Below are positions 20,864 to 45,005 of a stretch of 45,005 bases of DNA, piece after piece (the stretch's first letter is position 1; every line of letters begins with the position of its first letter). Under the pieces are notes generated by a model. That model ran no database searches and was not told the origin of the DNA. It worked only from the letters and a program-made list of their open reading frames with translations. Both the position numbers and the translations under genes were made by a program. Source of the stretch: Gammaproteobacteria bacterium. Its GTDB lineage: Bacteria; Pseudomonadota; Gammaproteobacteria; Chromatiales; Chromatiaceae. The stretch is taken from positions 1-45,005 of the forward strand of contig JAABSM010000024.1 of the NCBI GenBank assembly GCA_011390365.1, in the 5' to 3' direction.

Positions 20864-23209
20864 ATGACATACATCCGTAAAATCGGCCAAATCATCTCCT
20901 CGATACTGCTATTGGCCCTGCTGCACCCGCACCTTCACGCCGCTTCGAATGAGGCCTCGGCCCAGCGGGGCCAAGAGAATCCAACCCTGTTCCAGAACGA
21001 CCCCCCAGAAAGCCCCTCTCCCCGAGGGAGAGGGGTGAGGGCCAAGGCAACGGGAAAAGAGCTCGGCGTCAATCCCGCCGCGCAGCGCGCGGAGCACCTG
21101 GAGCGGCACCTCAGCAGGGAGGCGGAAGCCGATGCGGCCCAGCGCGCCGCGATTCGCATCCACCTCATCGCAGCCTACCGCACCCTTGGCCAGCCGCGCC
21201 GGGCCATCCCCCACGCTCGCGAGCTGATGAATGAACTGGAAGGGCTTGCCGATAACCCGTCGCTAGGTGCAACAGCCGCCCAGCATGCCGCCGACCTGTT
21301 TCAATCCGTCGGCATGCCGGAACAGGCATTGCGCGCCGCCGAGTTCGGCGTTGACGCCGCCCGCCGCGACGGCGATGCGGCGCAACTGGCGGCCAGCCTC
21401 AACACCTACGGCAATGCCCTCGCCGCCCTCGATCGCCACGACGAAGCGGATGCAGCCTACCGCGAGGCCATGGAACGGGCACGGACGGCGAATCTCATGG
21501 AACTGGCCTGTCGAGCAGGGCTCAATCGGGTGCGCGGTCACCTCGCCGCCGACGACCCGCATGCCGCCGCTCGCGCCTGGCGGGAGATCGCCGGGCTTGT
21601 TGAACAGATCGAAGAAGAGTCGGAAAAGGCGCGGCTACGCCTGACCCTGGGGATCCTGGCGACCCGTTTGGGCGAGTCCCACCACGCCGAGGCCGAGCGT
21701 CTTCTAGGGCTGGCGACCAAGGTAGACGATGCCCTGACCCGCGCCATGGCCCACGGCCACCTGGCACAGCTGCACGAACAACAGGGTGAACTTGGCGATG
21801 CCCTGCGGCGGGTACGCCAGGCGATCTTTCACGGCCAGCAGCTGGCCGCGCCCCAGCTCCTCTACCGCTGGCTGCGGCTCCAGGGGCGACTGCAAAGCGA
21901 GCTGGGCGAGCCGGCCAAGGCCATCGACAGCTACCGGCGCGCCATCGCGGCACTGGAACCGGTCCGCGATACGATCACCCTGGGCTATCGCATGGCCCCG
22001 GGATCCTTCGAGGAGATGGTGCAAGAGGTCTATTTCGAGCTGGCGGACCTGCTGTTGCGCCAGGCCGAGGCCAGCGGCGACGATGCACGGCGACAGGCGC
22101 TACTGCGCGAGGCCCGCGACACCGTCGAACAGCTACGCATGGCGGAGCTGGCCAACTACTTTCAGGACGCCTGCGTGGCCGAGGCGCGCAGCCGCCAGAC
22201 CAGCCTCGACCAGGTCTCCCCCAGCAGCGCGGTGCTCTATCCGCTGGTCCTGCCCGATCGCCTCGCCCTCATCGTCAGCCACGCCGGCGACATCTTCCAG
22301 TTCACCCGCCCCGTCTCTCGCAGCGACTTGAGAGACACCACCCTGGCGTTCCGACGCAACCTGCAAACCCGCCCCCACAACCGCTTCCTCTACCAGGCGA
22401 AGACCCTTTACGACTGGCTAATCGCGCCGCTGGCGCCAGAGCTGGAGCGGCGCGGCATCGACACCCTGGTGGTGATCCCCGACGGCCCCCTGCGCACCAT
22501 CCCCTTCGCCACCCTGCATGACGGCGAGCGGTTTCTGATCGAACGCTACGCCCTGGTCACCACGCCGGGGTTGACCCTGACCGATCCCTCGCCGCTGCGG
22601 GAGGCGGAGCACCGCGCCCTGCTCGCCGGCGTCTCCGACGCCGTGCAGGACTTCTCGCCCCTGCCCGGCGTGCCTCGGGAGCTGCGCGACATCGGCGAGA
22701 TCACCGCCGGTTCCACCATCCTCAACCAGGCGTTCGGGCTGGACGCCTTTCGCCAACAGCTGCTGGAGACCCCCTACTCCGCCATTCACCTCGCCACCCA
22801 CGGCCAGTTCACCGGCGATCCGGAGACCAGTTTTCTCCTCACCTACGACGACAGGCTGACCATGGACCGCTTGCAGGAGGTGATCGGGTATGGAAAATTT
22901 CGGGAACAACCCCTGGAGCTGCTGACCTTGAGCGCCTGTCAGACTGCCCTCGGCGACGAACAGGCGGCGCTGGGACTGGCCGGCGTCGCGGTTAAGGCCG
23001 GCGCCCGCAGCGCCATCGCCACCCTCTGGTTCGTCGACGACGAGGCAACCTCGCGCGCCATGCGCGAATTCTACCAGCGGCTGTTCGGCGACGAACCCCT
23101 GAGCAAGGCGAAGGCACTACAGCAGATCCAGACCCGCCTTCTCTCCAACCCCCGCTTCGCCCACCCCGCCTATTGGGGACCCTTTCTGCTGATTGGCAAC
23201 TGGTTGTAA
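20864..23209 (+). CDS. Exported TPR-CHAT domain protein (caspase-like peptidase)
   Basis: 781 residues. An N-terminal hydrophobic segment (about 9-26, ending HLHAAS) is a likely signal peptide, placing the protein in the periplasm or outside. TPR-like helical repeats run from about 80 to 410. The CHAT domain (about 480-781) is a caspase-like C14 peptidase fold; its catalytic pair is present as HLATHG (His646) and LSACQT (Cys692). The gene follows tpsA-tpsB on the same strand after a 330-bp gap, an association I know from sulfur bacteria and cyanobacteria. It might process TpsA or another envelope protein; that is inference. Residues about 46-68 come from a CCCTCTCCC repeat inserted in frame. 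ATG at 20864 has no strong ribosome site. Confidence 0.85.
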   Translation: MTYIRKIGQIISSILLLALLHPHLHAASNEASAQRGQENPTLFQNDPPESPSPRGRGVRAKATGKELGVNPAAQRAEHLERHLSREAEADAAQRAAIRIHLIAAYRTLGQPRRAIPHARELMNELEGLADNPSLGATAAQHAADLFQSVGMPEQALRAAEFGVDAARRDGDAAQLAASLNTYGNALAALDRHDEADAAYREAMERARTANLMELACRAGLNRVRGHLAADDPHAAARAWREIAGLVEQIEEESEKARLRLTLGILATRLGESHHAEAERLLGLATKVDDALTRAMAHGHLAQLHEQQGELGDALRRVRQAIFHGQQLAAPQLLYRWLRLQGRLQSELGEPAKAIDSYRRAIAALEPVRDTITLGYRMAPGSFEEMVQEVYFELADLLLRQAEASGDDARRQALLREARDTVEQLRMAELANYFQDACVAEARSRQTSLDQVSPSSAVLYPLVLPDRLALIVSHAGDIFQFTRPVSRSDLRDTTLAFRRNLQTRPHNRFLYQAKTLYDWLIAPLAPELERRGIDTLVVIPDGPLRTIPFATLHDGERFLIERYALVTTPGLTLTDPSPLREAEHRALLAGVSDAVQDFSPLPGVPRELRDIGEITAGSTILNQAFGLDAFRQQLLETPYSAIHLATHGQFTGDPETSFLLTYDDRLTMDRLQEVIGYGKFREQPLELLTLSACQTALGDEQAALGLAGVAVKAGARSAIATLWFVDDEATSRAMREFYQRLFGDEPLSKAKALQQIQTRLLSNPRFAHPAYWGPFLLIGNWL
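21012..21043. repeat. CCCTCTCCC hairpin repeat inside the CHAT gene
   Basis: CCCCTCTCC-CCGAG-GGAGAGGGG followed by TGAGGGCC, the same family as the copies in dnaE2 and at the right window end. It encodes a Ser/Pro/Arg/Gly run just after the signal peptide and does not break the frame. Confidence 0.85.
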
Positions 23210-34546: not shown

Positions 34547-37500
34547 TCAGCGAAAATCCCGAGAGCGCGCCACCAGCCCACCGAGCATGTCGCTGAAATC
34601 GACCAGACGCCGGGCGACGACGTGGATCACCTCCCCTTCCCGCTGAACCTCGCCCGCCACCGCCAGCAGGCGCGCGCCGAGCAGGGCCTGGCGGTAGCGT
34701 TCGGCGACCCGCTGCCAGATGACCAGGTTGATATGGCCGAATTCGTCCTCCAGGGTGACGAAGGTGACGTTTTTCGCCCCTGGGCGTTGGCGGTTGATGA
34801 CGATGCCGGCGGTGAAGGCCTGGTCGCCGTGGTTCTTGTCGGCGATGCCCTGGGCGGTGCTGACCCCCTTGCGCTTGAGTTGCGGGCGGATCAGGGCCAG
34901 GGGGTGACTGGCGAGGGTGAGGCCGGTGGCGGCGTAGTCGGCGATCACCTGTTCCCCTTCCGACGGGGGATGCAATAAAGGCGTGGTGCGTTCCGGTTCG
35001 TCCTCCACCAGCGGCAGGGTTGGGGCGAGTCCGCTGATGTGCCAGGCGGCCTGGCGGCGATTGCCGGCGAGGCCGCGCAGGGCGTCGGCGGCGGCCAGGG
35101 CCTGACGATCGCCGGCGTCGAGGGCGGCGCGGCGGTGCAGGTCGACCAGCGAGCGAAACGGCCCCGAGGCGCGGCTCTCCGCCAGTTGTCGTCCGCCCCT
35201 TTCCGACAGGCCGCGCACCATGCACAGCCCCAGGCGCAGCGCCGGCTGGGGGCTAGTTTGGGATGGGGCGTATCGGGAGGGGCGTTCCAGGGTGCACTCC
35301 CAGTCGCTGTCGCGCACATCCACCGGGCGCACCTCCACCCCCTGCCGGCGCGCCTCGCCAACCAGCTGGGCCGGGGCGTAGAAGCCCATGGGCTGGCTGT
35401 TGAGGAGGGCGGCGAAGAAGGCTGCGGGGTGGTGACACTTGAGCCAGGCGGAGACGTAGACCAGCAGCGCGAAGCTGGCGGCGTGGGATTCAGGGAAGCC
35501 GTATTCGCCGAAGCCCAGGATCTGGCGATAGATGCGACGGGCGAACTCCTCTTCATAACCCCGTTCGCGCATGCCCTCCACCAGTCGTTGTTCGAACTTC
35601 TCCAGGGTACCGCGCTTGCGCCAGGCGACGATGGAGCGGCGCAACTGATCCGCCTCGCCGGGAGAGAAGCCGGCGGCGACCATCGCCACCTTGATCACCT
35701 GTTCCTGGAAGATGGGCACGCCGAGGGTGCGGCCGAGCACCTGGCGCACCTCTTCGGAGGGGTACTCCACCGCCTCCTTGCCCTGACGCCGCAACAGATA
35801 GGGGTGGACCATGTCGCCCTGAATCGGCCCGGGACGCACCAGCGCCACCTCGATCACCAGATCGTAGAAACAAGCCGGCTTGAGGCGCGGCAGCATCGCC
35901 ATCTGCGCCCGGGACTCGATCTGAAACACGCCGATGGTCTCGCCGCGCTGGATCATGGCGTAGGTCTCGGGGTCTTCCGGGGGGATGTTGTGGAGGCCTA
36001 GGGGAGGGATGAGGGATGAGGGATGAGGGCTGAGTTTCGAGTTCGCGGAATTGCCGGATGCTCTGCGCTTATCCGGCCTACATTCGTCAATCGAAGCAAA
36101 AAGCCCCTCTCCCCGCGGGAGAGGGGTTTGGGGTGAGGGTGCCCTTGCTTTGCCATCGGAGGCCGAACCAAGCTCCGGCATGCCCTCACCCCCGGCCCCT
36201 CTCCCTCGGGGAGAGGGGGGCTTGGTGTTTGGGCCTTGGGGGGCTCGTTTCGTAGGGCGGATAAGCGCAGCGCATCCGCCAGTCGCGGAGTTGCCGGATG
36301 CGCTACGCTTATCCGGCCTACATTTCTCAGTCGAAGCAAAAAGCCCCTCTCCCCGCGGGAGAGGGGTTGGGGTGAGGGCTCGAATGTTGGGTGAAGATCC
36401 CAGGCCGGAATCACTCTCCAATCTCCCCGCCCCCTTCGCAAGCCCCTCTTGCGAAGGAAAATCCAGTATTCGCGCCTCCTGTTCTCGAACCCCATTACCT
36501 CTTCCGAAAAAAGAGGGGCTATCCTCTTCGACACCGCCGGGCAACAGGGACGCCCCGACCGCATTGGCGACGGCCTGTTCTTGCCTGCCCCAGCCATGAT
36601 AGGCATTGAGCATCTCGAAGGCGCGGCGGATGGCGGAGAGCATGCCGAGGGCGAGGCAGTCGACCTTGAGCAGGCCCAGCGCCTCCAGGTCGTTCTTGTC
36701 CCATTGAATCACGGTGCGCCCGGGCATGGCGGCGTTTTCGATGGGGACGAGTTGGGAGAGGGGGCCACGGGAGATGACGAAGCCGCCGACATGTTGGGAG
36801 AGGTGGCGGGGGAAGCCAAGTAGTTGTCGCATCAGGGCGAAGATCATGCGCAGGGTGCGATTGGCGGGGTCGAAGCCCTGTTCGTGCAGCGCCTCGGGGG
36901 CGATGCGTTCGCCGTCCCAGCCGTACAGGGCGGCGATCAGGCGATCGCTCTGGTCGCCATCCATGCCGAACACCCGCGCCAGGTCCCGCAGCGCGCTCTT
37001 GGGGCGGTAGCTGATCACCGTCGCCGCCAGCGCCGCCCGCTCGCGGCCATATTTCCGGTAGATGTACTGAATCACCTCCTCGCGCCGCTGATGCTCGAAA
37101 TCCACGTCGATATCCGGCGGCTCGCCCCGCTCCCTGGAGATGAAGCGCTCGAACAGCATCTCCATGCGCGCCGGGTCGACCTCGGTGATCCCCAGACAGT
37201 AGCAGACCGCGGAGTTGGCCGCCGAGCCCCGCCCCTGGCACAGGATCTCCCGGGAGCGGGCGAAGCGGACGATGTCGTGGACGGTGAGGAAATAGGGTTC
37301 GTAGCTCAGCTCGGCGATCAGCGCCAGTTCGTGCTCCACCAGGCGTCGCACCTTCTCCGGCATGCCCCCGGGCCAGCGCAACCGCGCGCCCTCTTCGGTG
37401 AGCCGCCGCAAATGGTCCGCCGGCGTGGTCCCCGGCGGTACCAGTTCGGCGGGGTATTCGTAACGCAACTCATCCAGGGAGAAGTCGCATAGCTCGGCGA

Positions 37501-38239
37501 TGCGCAGGGTCTCGGCGAGGGCCTCGGCGGGAAACAGGCGCGCGATGTGGTCGCGCTCCCGCAGCCGCCGTTCGCTGTTGTGCTGCACCACCGCCCCCGC
37601 CTCGTGGATGGCCAGGCCATGATGGATGGCGCTGAGGGTATCCAGCAGGGGACGACGCCGGGCGTCGTGCATCAGCGCGCCGCCGCAGGCGACCAGCGGC
37701 AGCCCCGCCACCTCCGCCAGGCAGCGGGCATTGGCGAGGCGCGGTCGGTCCTGGCCGGCGCGGACCTGTTCGACGCCGATCCAGGCGCGCCCGGCAAAGT
37801 GGGTCGCCAACCACTCCGCCGGCTCCCGGTCGCCATCCAGACCCGGCAGCAGGATCGCCAGACATCGTTCCAACCCGGTCAGCAGATCCCCTCGCCACAG
37901 ACGATACTCCCCTTTTGGAGAGCGACGACGACCGCGGGTGATCAACGCCGACAGAGCGCCGTAGCCCTCCCGATCTCGCGCCAGCAGGACCAGCCTCGGC
38001 CCATCCGCGAGCTGGAAGCTGGCCCCGATCAGCAGCTTCAGGCCCAGCGTTTTGGCCTCGCCATGGGCGCGTACCACCCCGGCCAGGGAACACTCGTCGG
38101 TCAGGGCAAGCGCCCCGTAGCCTAGCTCATGGGCGCGCTGGACCAGCTCCTCGGGATGGGAGGCGGCTTGCAGGAAGGTGTAGTTGGAGAGGGCGTAGAG
38201 CTCGGCGTAGCCCGTCCCCGGTGGTGATTCTCTCGTCAT
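34547..38239 (-). CDS. dnaE2: Error-prone DNA polymerase DnaE2 with a repeat-derived insertion
   Basis: C-family polymerase for mutagenic lesion bypass. 1230 residues, about 190 more than usual. Domains: PHP (about 10-280: YAELYALSNYTFLQAASHPEEL), palm with DIDVDFE (about 375-383) and KVDCLALG (Asp near 525), fingers (QIESRAQMAMLPRLKP), tandem helix-hairpin-helix region and a C-terminal OB-fold (about 1130-1220: VTFVTLEDEFGHINLVIW). Residues about 551-747 (36587-35997) are not polymerase sequence: they are in-frame repeats placed between RRAFEMLNAYHGWG and LHNIPPEDPE, which are normally nearly adjacent. The frame stays open, so the protein may work with a long loop. A LexA box lies 10 bases before the ATG. 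The usual imuA-imuB genes are absent next to it. Confidence 0.92.
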   Translation of the reverse strand: MTRESPPGTGYAELYALSNYTFLQAASHPEELVQRAHELGYGALALTDECSLAGVVRAHGEAKTLGLKLLIGASFQLADGPRLVLLARDREGYGALSALITRGRRRSPKGEYRLWRGDLLTGLERCLAILLPGLDGDREPAEWLATHFAGRAWIGVEQVRAGQDRPRLANARCLAEVAGLPLVACGGALMHDARRRPLLDTLSAIHHGLAIHEAGAVVQHNSERRLRERDHIARLFPAEALAETLRIAELCDFSLDELRYEYPAELVPPGTTPADHLRRLTEEGARLRWPGGMPEKVRRLVEHELALIAELSYEPYFLTVHDIVRFARSREILCQGRGSAANSAVCYCLGITEVDPARMEMLFERFISRERGEPPDIDVDFEHQRREEVIQYIYRKYGRERAALAATVISYRPKSALRDLARVFGMDGDQSDRLIAALYGWDGERIAPEALHEQGFDPANRTLRMIFALMRQLLGFPRHLSQHVGGFVISRGPLSQLVPIENAAMPGRTVIQWDKNDLEALGLLKVDCLALGMLSAIRRAFEMLNAYHGWGRQEQAVANAVGASLLPGGVEEDSPSFFGRGNGVREQEARILDFPSQEGLAKGAGRLESDSGLGSSPNIRALTPTPLPRGEGLFASTEKCRPDKRSASGNSATGGCAALIRPTKRAPQGPNTKPPSPRGRGAGGEGMPELGSASDGKARAPSPQTPLPRGEGLFASIDECRPDKRRASGNSANSKLSPHPSSLIPPLGLHNIPPEDPETYAMIQRGETIGVFQIESRAQMAMLPRLKPACFYDLVIEVALVRPGPIQGDMVHPYLLRRQGKEAVEYPSEEVRQVLGRTLGVPIFQEQVIKVAMVAAGFSPGEADQLRRSIVAWRKRGTLEKFEQRLVEGMRERGYEEEFARRIYRQILGFGEYGFPESHAASFALLVYVSAWLKCHHPAAFFAALLNSQPMGFYAPAQLVGEARRQGVEVRPVDVRDSDWECTLERPSRYAPSQTSPQPALRLGLCMVRGLSERGGRQLAESRASGPFRSLVDLHRRAALDAGDRQALAAADALRGLAGNRRQAAWHISGLAPTLPLVEDEPERTTPLLHPPSEGEQVIADYAATGLTLASHPLALIRPQLKRKGVSTAQGIADKNHGDQAFTAGIVINRQRPGAKNVTFVTLEDEFGHINLVIWQRVAERYRQALLGARLLAVAGEVQREGEVIHVVARRLVDFSDMLGGLVARSRDFR
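35997..36587. repeat. Repeat-derived insertion inside dnaE2 (about 590 bp, in frame)
   Basis: The stretch holds three CCCTCTCCC hairpins (about 36102-36138, 36182-36220 inverted, 36342-36377), three GGATAAGCG..CGCATCC hairpins (36053-36078, 36256-36280, 36293-36318) and a GAGGGAT heptamer run (36003-36030). Two roughly 95-bp blocks, 36043-36138 and 36283-36377, are direct copies offset by 240 bp, exactly 80 codons. No stop codon arises in the dnaE2 frame. Boundaries were placed where polymerase sequence stops and restarts. Confidence 0.85.
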
Positions 38240-44854: not shown

Positions 44855-45005
44855 GAGACTGTGAAAGTATTCTGTCTTTCTCCCTCTCCCTTTGGGAGAG
44901 GGCCGGGGTGAGGGCATGATTCGAGCGCAAGTGCTTGATTCTTGCCCTCACCCCAACCCCTCTCCCTCGGGGAGAGGGGCTTTTTCAGAATACTTTCACA
45001 GTCTC
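44855..45005. repeat. Composite inverted repeat with two facing CCCTCTCCC hairpins
   Basis: GAGACTGTGAAAGTATTCTG (44855-44874) is repeated as an exact reverse complement at 44986-45005. Inside are two CCCTCTCCC elements pointing at each other (about 44880-44916 and 44944-44981), each with a GGGGTGAGGGC tail. The whole 151 bp is one large near-palindrome and may continue beyond the window. Confidence 0.85.

Follow-up and report, generated by a model that had tools for sequence, protein, structure and literature searches.

How does a long run of hairpin-forming repeats come to lie inside the reading frame of a DNA polymerase gene, and what becomes of it there? The question is raised by dnaE2 (imuC), which lies on contig C86 of a 4.26-Mb draft genome in 169 contigs (G000, here the source genome). 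The contig, 45,005 bp in full, is the whole stretch of DNA that we analyzed and is called the window below. The original prediction had described about 197 codons of dispersed repeats within the gene, and had offered a tolerated loop, removal at the RNA or protein level, or loss of gene function as explanations. Our analysis indicates that the insert is probably a stack of mobile palindromes, translated as a loop that DnaE2 tolerates.

The insertion in dnaE2

The product of dnaE2 scores 1403 bits against the NCBIfam error-prone DNA polymerase family (cut-off 939), and the PHP, alpha NTPase, finger, helix-hairpin-helix and OB domains are present. The motifs PDIDVDF (starting at aa 375) and LLKVDCL (aa 523), whose aspartates we take to be catalytic, align with the matching stretches of E. 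coli DnaE. Among the best 80 of 272 named matches, the nearest relatives are headed by a Chromatiaceae MAG, Lamprocystis purpurea and other MAGs; the parts of the gene that flank the insert are about 65 to 75% identical to the closest relatives, and the catalytic motifs are kept. The gene and the elements of its insert are as follows.

34547 to 38239, minus strand: dnaE2 (imuC), error-prone DNA polymerase, one stop-free ORF of 1230 codons
38252 to 38267, minus strand: SOS-box-like site CTGT-N8-ACAG, 12 bp 5' of the dnaE2 start codon
36008 to 36592, minus strand: net insertion of about 195 codons (aa ~550 to 744), from alignment to relatives
36489 to 36532, minus strand: decayed end, a 70% inverted arm match to 36330 to 36373 around A unit 1
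36344 to 36378, minus strand: A unit 1 (palindrome 36344 to 36366 plus tail)
36292 to 36321, minus strand: GTAG-type REP 1, inverted partner of REP 2
36252 to 36281, plus strand: GTAG-type REP 2
36104 to 36218, minus strand: A doublet, units 2 and 3 (palindrome-tail, 43-nt spacer, tail-palindrome; palindromes 36104 to 36126 and 36196 to 36218)
36052 to 36081, minus strand: REP 3
36043 to 36132, minus strand: 90-bp REP+A segment, 92% identical to a copy 240 bp away at 36283 to 36372
36004 to 36031, minus strand: short tandem, coding TCCCTCA units
36104 to 36126 and 36344 to 36366, minus strand: terminator-like hairpins on the coding strand (three on both strands together; shuffles, mean 0.9, sd 1.3)

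The SOS-box-like site, called by what we take to be the LexA consensus, is the sole match in the window; shuffled sequences had 0.22 matches on average, and 21 of 100 had one.

The insertion is real. The match of relatives to the protein stops at about aa 549 and resumes at about aa 745, and in the alignment with E. coli DnaE the flanks of the insert end at residue 574 and begin at residue 582. As predicted, two normally adjacent motifs are interrupted: the loop between SAIRRAFEML and IPPEDPETY spans 207 aa here and 10 to 14 aa in 15 of 19 aligned DnaE2 proteins, the others including G010 (25 aa), G003 (56 aa) and G048 (100 aa).

The six hairpins in two families and the 240-bp offset duplication were likewise borne out. 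Read in the coding direction, the insert consists of a stretch with the decayed inverted end, A unit 1, two inverted GTAG REPs, the A doublet, REP 3 and the short tandem. The three REP units (36052, 36252 and 36292) each form a stem-loop with GTAG at one end, and the Rfam family naRNA4 matches the REP 1/REP 2 pair, below its gathering score. The other three units (36104, 36196 and 36344) belong to a palindrome that we call A, about 40 bp long and asymmetric (CCCCTCTCCC..GGGAGAGGGG with a GGGGTGAGGG tail). They carry neither a GTAG nor a CGTC tag and their tail is GGGGTGAGGG-like, so they fall outside the GTAG/CGTC class of REPs. The 92% identity of the two REP+A segments suggests one local duplication. 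The description of the whole insert as dispersed repeats stood in part: about 280 of its 591 bp have a match at other sites in the genome, and all of these lie between 36049 and 36386, whereas 36387 to 36587, which includes the decayed inverted end, has no match elsewhere in the source genome.

The reading frame stays open across the insert, as had been claimed, with no stop in the 1230 codons. On the coding strand the dnaE2 frame of the insert has no stops, compared with 11 and 1 in the other two frames, and this frame was open in a fraction of only 0.012 of 2000 dinucleotide shuffles. The insert has a GC3 of 0.59, versus 0.85 and 0.86 in the flanks, folds strongly as RNA (z = -6.3), and would encode peptides such as LESDSGLGSSPNIR. 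In an AlphaFold2 model of aa 230 to 960 built with 50 relatives (mean pLDDT 70.0, pTM 0.68), the blocks from about aa 565 to 739 had pLDDT values of 24 to 42 and no secondary structure, while the other blocks ranged from 50 to 97 and were mostly above 70. The low values may partly reflect the insert's lack of homologs. The insert is most likely translated and tolerated as a disordered loop. Against this reading, the terminator-like hairpins of the coding strand could lower dnaE2 expression.

One loop with many fillers

The same loop has been filled repeatedly. We surveyed 150 distinct DnaE2 genes, from 77 of 211 genomes of the family, other relatives and 80 named loci (the best 80 of 272), covering the linker and two neighboring intervals; one locus with an N anchor but no C anchor was excluded, as were N-anchor matches below 48% identity (replicative DnaE). 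Twelve of the 150 genes had 15 or more extra residues at the linker. In the interval of 165 aa before it 1 of 148 genes (G051) did, and in the interval of 63 aa after it 0 of 148. No off-frame gap was found among the 150 linkers or in either neighboring interval. The residues between the anchors number 219 in G107, 201 in G000, 94 in G048, 93 in G102, 50 in G003, 48 in G211, 44 in G104, 43 in G209, 33 in G105, 29 in G215, and 22 each in G213 and G069. Comparison with relatives, which had been put forward as a check, gave a twofold answer: most have fewer than 15 extra residues at the loop, and several have different fillers of varied lengths. The insert of the source genome itself recurs in none of the aligned relatives.

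In 7 of the 12 genes the filler is a dispersed repeat of the species' own genome (G000, G048, G102, G105, G215, G107 and G104), in a search that covered these and G003, G211 and G209. The filler has 101 matches in G000 (itself included) and 18 in G048; a pooled query of eight fillers gave 116 in G102, 56 in G105, 50 in G215, 44 in G107 and 22 in G104, counts that partly represent matches to another genome's filler. The fillers of G003, G211 and G209 are not dispersed, with 2, 1 and 1 matches in their own genomes, the gene itself included. Where we read the letters by eye, the G104 filler is an inverted GTAG REP pair, and those of G107, G102 and G105 are palindrome-plus-tail units of other sequences. 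In the dnaE2 gene of G048 (L050), contig positions 74328 to 74461 hold a second insertion, farther downstream than the loop.

A palindromes and the DUF559 endonuclease

The insertion in dnaE2, which had been called the clearest anomaly of the window, is not a lone one. The pattern CCCTCTCCC-N0-7-GGGAGAGGG finds 93 A palindromes in the source genome, compared with none for the same pattern written backward, and none in the congener G001. We examined 46 sites on 24 contigs (the window and further stretches of the genome), fetched by similarity to the insert and partly to its peptide. The tail lies on exactly one side of the palindrome in 43 of them (24 left, 19 right) and on neither side in 3. 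Of 13 close pairs, 8 face inward as doublets, 76 to 92 bp apart. Sixteen of the 46 sites, a proportion that is no unbiased rate for the genome in a sample drawn by likeness to the insert, are in frame in genes whose Pfam domains surround or span the unit. The same element is thus found in frame in nine unrelated genes: dnaE2 and an MmeI-type enzyme (three units each), a polyketide synthase, an HsdR and an Eco57I-type methylase (two each), and an RND transporter, an SMC/SbcC-like ATPase, a NUDIX protein and an M61 peptidase (one each). In the NUDIX protein the unit sits in a clean insertion of about 30 aa that is absent from 9 of 9 aligned orthologs.

Further copies lie in the window outside dnaE2.

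21011 to 21043, plus strand: A-type palindrome without a full tail near the N-terminus of a CHAT/TPR protein (20864 to 23209, plus strand), in frame, peptide PESPSPRGRGVRAKA
44882 to 44985, no strand assigned: A doublet at the contig end

The CHAT/TPR protein and an AMP-ligase (L096) are likely two further genes with an in-frame unit. Both copies were excluded from the 16 sites, the former with Pfam domains only downstream of the palindrome, the latter with a decayed palindrome and no clear excess length relative to gramicidin synthetase. A 932-codon frame at L041 and a 636-codon plus-strand frame of L098, neither with a Pfam match, were rejected as spurious. A units or doublets also stand at the ends of contigs C86, C14 and C31 and at the starts of C35, C77 and C111; the assembly seems to break at A units.

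In the MmeI-type gene, a DUF559 domain lies in frame between A units (aa 590 to 692, E 4e-36), after the methylase domain and before the target-recognition domain, and we therefore looked at DUF559 genes in general. At E values up to 1e-15, the limit applied here, there were 63 matches in 53 of the 211 family genomes and two outside the family; 37 of these 65 loci, mostly the best scoring, were examined for palindromes with perfect arms of at least 8 and a loop of up to 6 within 220 bp of the gene. Such palindromes stood on both sides of the gene in 27 loci, on one side in 8 (the MmeI-type copy included) and on neither in 2, which leaves 10 of the 37 lacking them on at least one side. The arms were of one family in 25 of the 27 two-sided loci. 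Among 373 control ORFs from the named DnaE2 loci, 6 had palindromes on both sides (1 with shared arms) and 79 on one side, a difference in two-sided loci of p = 2e-28; of 24 ORFs of the window, 1 was two-sided and none had shared arms. In the loci read letter by letter, the two ends are inverted relative to each other, and the tail of each palindrome repeats half of an arm. Their sequences vary by locus (CCCCTCTCCC, CCCCCCTTT, CCCTCCCC, CCCCCGCCC) and their plan is constant. The copy in dnaE2 would consist of such ends alone, with no gene between them.

The association extends beyond the family and reaches the DnaE2 loop itself. Of 26 matched plasmid records, 12 were examined (Deinococcus, 4; Azospirillum and Synechocystis, 2 each; Sphingomonas, Shinella, Sinorhizobium and Pseudanabaena, 1 each); perfect palindromes flank the DUF559 gene on both sides in 5 of them, on one side in 5 and on none in 2. 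Two-sided cases now come from Gammaproteobacteria, Alphaproteobacteria and Deinococcota, and one-sided cases from Cyanobacteriota; in Deinococcus psychrotolerans (L360) the inverted ends are about 50 bp long with tails pointing outward. In two Synechocystis sp. B12 plasmids (L361 and L357) the DUF559 genes adjoin a PglX gene and a DUF1156 gene, perhaps restriction-type targets again. In G102, the DUF559 gene is flanked on both sides by the repeat that fills the DnaE2 loop. In G107, two DUF559 genes each have the loop repeat on one side, and the one examined has a different palindrome on its other side. A palindromes are more numerous in genomes with DUF559 (n = 53; mean 17.0, median 5) than in genomes lacking it (n = 158; mean 4.2, median 1; p = 1e-8, uncorrected for kinship). 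Of the 158 genomes without a DUF559 match at 1e-15, however, 17 have at least 10 A palindromes, with up to 79, so the presence of palindromes does not need a resident DUF559 gene.

DUF559 also occurs in frame within other restriction-modification (R-M) genes. Twelve matches lie in frames of more than 400 codons, eight of which were scanned with Pfam. DUF559 is flanked on both sides by R-M domains in two HsdR frames (G125 and G113). In four others the R-M domains lie on one side: a DNA methylase (G133), an Eco57I/MmeI-like methylase (G181), an HsdM (G224) and an HsdS (G231). By eye, two of the remaining four are HsdS-like (G082 and G205) and two are not R-M-like (G101 and G230). In the seven scanned R-M frames, DUF559 had no splicing domain around it. 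The sole candidate, a weak one, came from G136 (L332:1756-3885, minus strand), an intein-like frame with DUF559 inside and, by eye, a type III-like methylase as host; its Pfam intein match scores 22.3 bits, below the cut-off of 35.8.

An intein-like insertion occurs in a replicative polymerase as well. The DnaE1 of the source genome (contig C124; L040:2175-5246, minus strand) has one at GYGFNK/SHSAAY. With its start included, the match to NCBIfam PRK09532 reaches position 861 of 876, at a score of 39.5 bits that is far below the cut-off; repeat peptides (PPLPTGGGRGEGVEHG) lie further on, and it has no Pfam intein match. In the replicative DnaE frames of G034:C5 (L035; 1648 aa) and G027:C49 (1528 aa) the match breaks at query aa ~871 to 917, and it is possible that these carry inteins near the same site.

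Origin of the insert and relation to known systems

The history that best accounts for these observations begins with small mobile palindromes landing, probably stepwise, in a surface loop of DnaE2. The insert would then be transcribed and translated as a long, disordered loop rich in Pro, Gly, Ser and Arg, and the polymerase would presumably remain active. Selection may have purged insertions that broke the frame, so that those of stop-free length divisible by three remain. The A units could be single ends, or inverted pairs of ends, of an element built as end, DUF559 gene (a Vsr-like PD-(D/E)XK endonuclease) and inverted end. The nuclease might recognize the ends and nick or cut, the element being copied or moved perhaps via repair, with gene-less units moved in trans; in-gene landings would survive where the frame stays open and the target is a loop or linker. 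The REPs, of the classical GTAG type, may have arrived by the known GTAG route. The tolerated loop foreseen as one option is the reading that our results support: several species have filled the loop in frame, the insert is modeled as unstructured, and flanks and motifs are kept. The wider generalization hangs, in our judgment, evenly in the balance. It holds that palindromic mobile elements of a widespread class owe their movement to a small Vsr-like endonuclease, DUF559, and not to a transposase, that stop-poor ends let these elements, nuclease gene included, settle in frame in genes, notably those for R-M, and join the host protein, and that the dnaE2 loop is a recurrent landing place.

An argument can be made that DUF559 is a passenger. 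The palindromes would spread otherwise (by RAYT, recombination or slippage), and the gene would sit in, or home into, their clusters. We regard this as somewhat less likely than not. In its favor, some genomes without DUF559 have many palindromes, and in the L332 frame the domain is placed as a homing enzyme would be. Yet in 25 of 37 loci the gene is closely bracketed by a pair of one family, inverted where read, and the plan holds constant while the palindrome sequence varies between loci. RAYT is an unlikely mover of all units; the source genome has a single Y1_Tnp match, of 21.1 bits, below the cut-off of 23. That the inserts are adaptive and tune an error-prone polymerase, following a speculation on REP-tagged repair proteins in PMC3733652, appears unlikely. 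The filling of one loop in several species would fit, but the fillers differ in sequence and genes outside repair carry A units too.

The remaining alternatives concern dnaE2 itself. It is quite unlikely that the gene is decaying, with the insert as a neutral scar. The low GC3 of the insert points that way, as does the sole congener compared (G001, 89% complete), which has no close DnaE2 match; against this and the suggested loss of function stand the unbroken 1230 codons, the conserved flanks and motifs and the absence of any off-frame linker among 150. Removal as an intein or intron is very improbable, even with an intein-like insert in the genome's own DnaE1. At E values up to 1, the insert had 26 Rfam matches, none to an intron family and none at gathering score, and no Pfam or NCBIfam family, hence no splicing domain, matched it; the fillers of other species are unrelated. 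We give almost no weight to an assembly artifact. The genome is a draft in which several contigs begin or end in A units, but the flanks are joined in frame, and a filler of this kind also occurs in G102, whose genome is a single contig, which argues against such an error.

DnaE2 appears among the REP-tagged repair proteins listed in PMC3733652, where the larger REP-coded stretches are 43 to 82 aa, flexible linkers or loops are one reason given for tolerance, and, apart from recB, REP sites differ within a category. Like those intragenic GTAG/CGTC REPs, three of the six hairpins here are of the GTAG type and lie in frame in DnaE2; unlike them, the stretch is about 195 aa long, one loop recurs as the site, and half of the units are tagless. 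The dnaE2 insert by itself extends a known kind, REPs in DnaE2 genes having already been printed, and the link to DUF559 is the new part. The loop offers a natural insertion series on how much foreign sequence the core of an enzyme tolerates. We know of no mover for abundant GC-rich palindromes of this make, and the tight link makes DUF559 a candidate enzyme that can be put to a simple test. The A units resemble REPINs in occurring as singlets and inverted doublets. The likeness to REP-RAYT systems (PMC3733652) extends to the proposed full form, in which a single gene stands between inverted ends; the gene here is DUF559, not a tyrosine transposase, and A has no GTAG tag.

Other systems resemble the DUF559 loci in their enzyme. 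VsrA of Caulobacter, a Vsr-like DUF559 endonuclease with a proposed role in mismatch repair, has the Pfam domain in common with the palindrome-linked genes; the string "palindrom" is absent from the main text of that article (PMC12907096). In a Legionella study, segments with a transposase and DUF559 are hotspots of mutation and recombination (PMC12308824). Searches of one open library yielded no paper linking DUF559 to palindromes. The in-frame DUF559 domains also recall inteins. Inteins with homing endonucleases have the endonuclease read in frame with the host gene, as DUF559 is here, and differ from the seven R-M frames, which have no splicing domain. Vsr-like homing endonucleases are reportedly the subject of a 2009 paper by Dassa. 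If the reading proposed here is true, the A units would be a counterpart, outside Rickettsia, of protein-coding palindromes. The palindromic elements of Rickettsia (Ogata 2000, 2002, as related in PMC10969869) are about 150 bp long and lie in frame inside unrelated genes. The likeness is one of behavior, palindromes translated in frame in unrelated genes, and the elements described here differ in their units of about 40 bp and doublets, their linked endonuclease and their setting in a gammaproteobacterium near Chromatiaceae.
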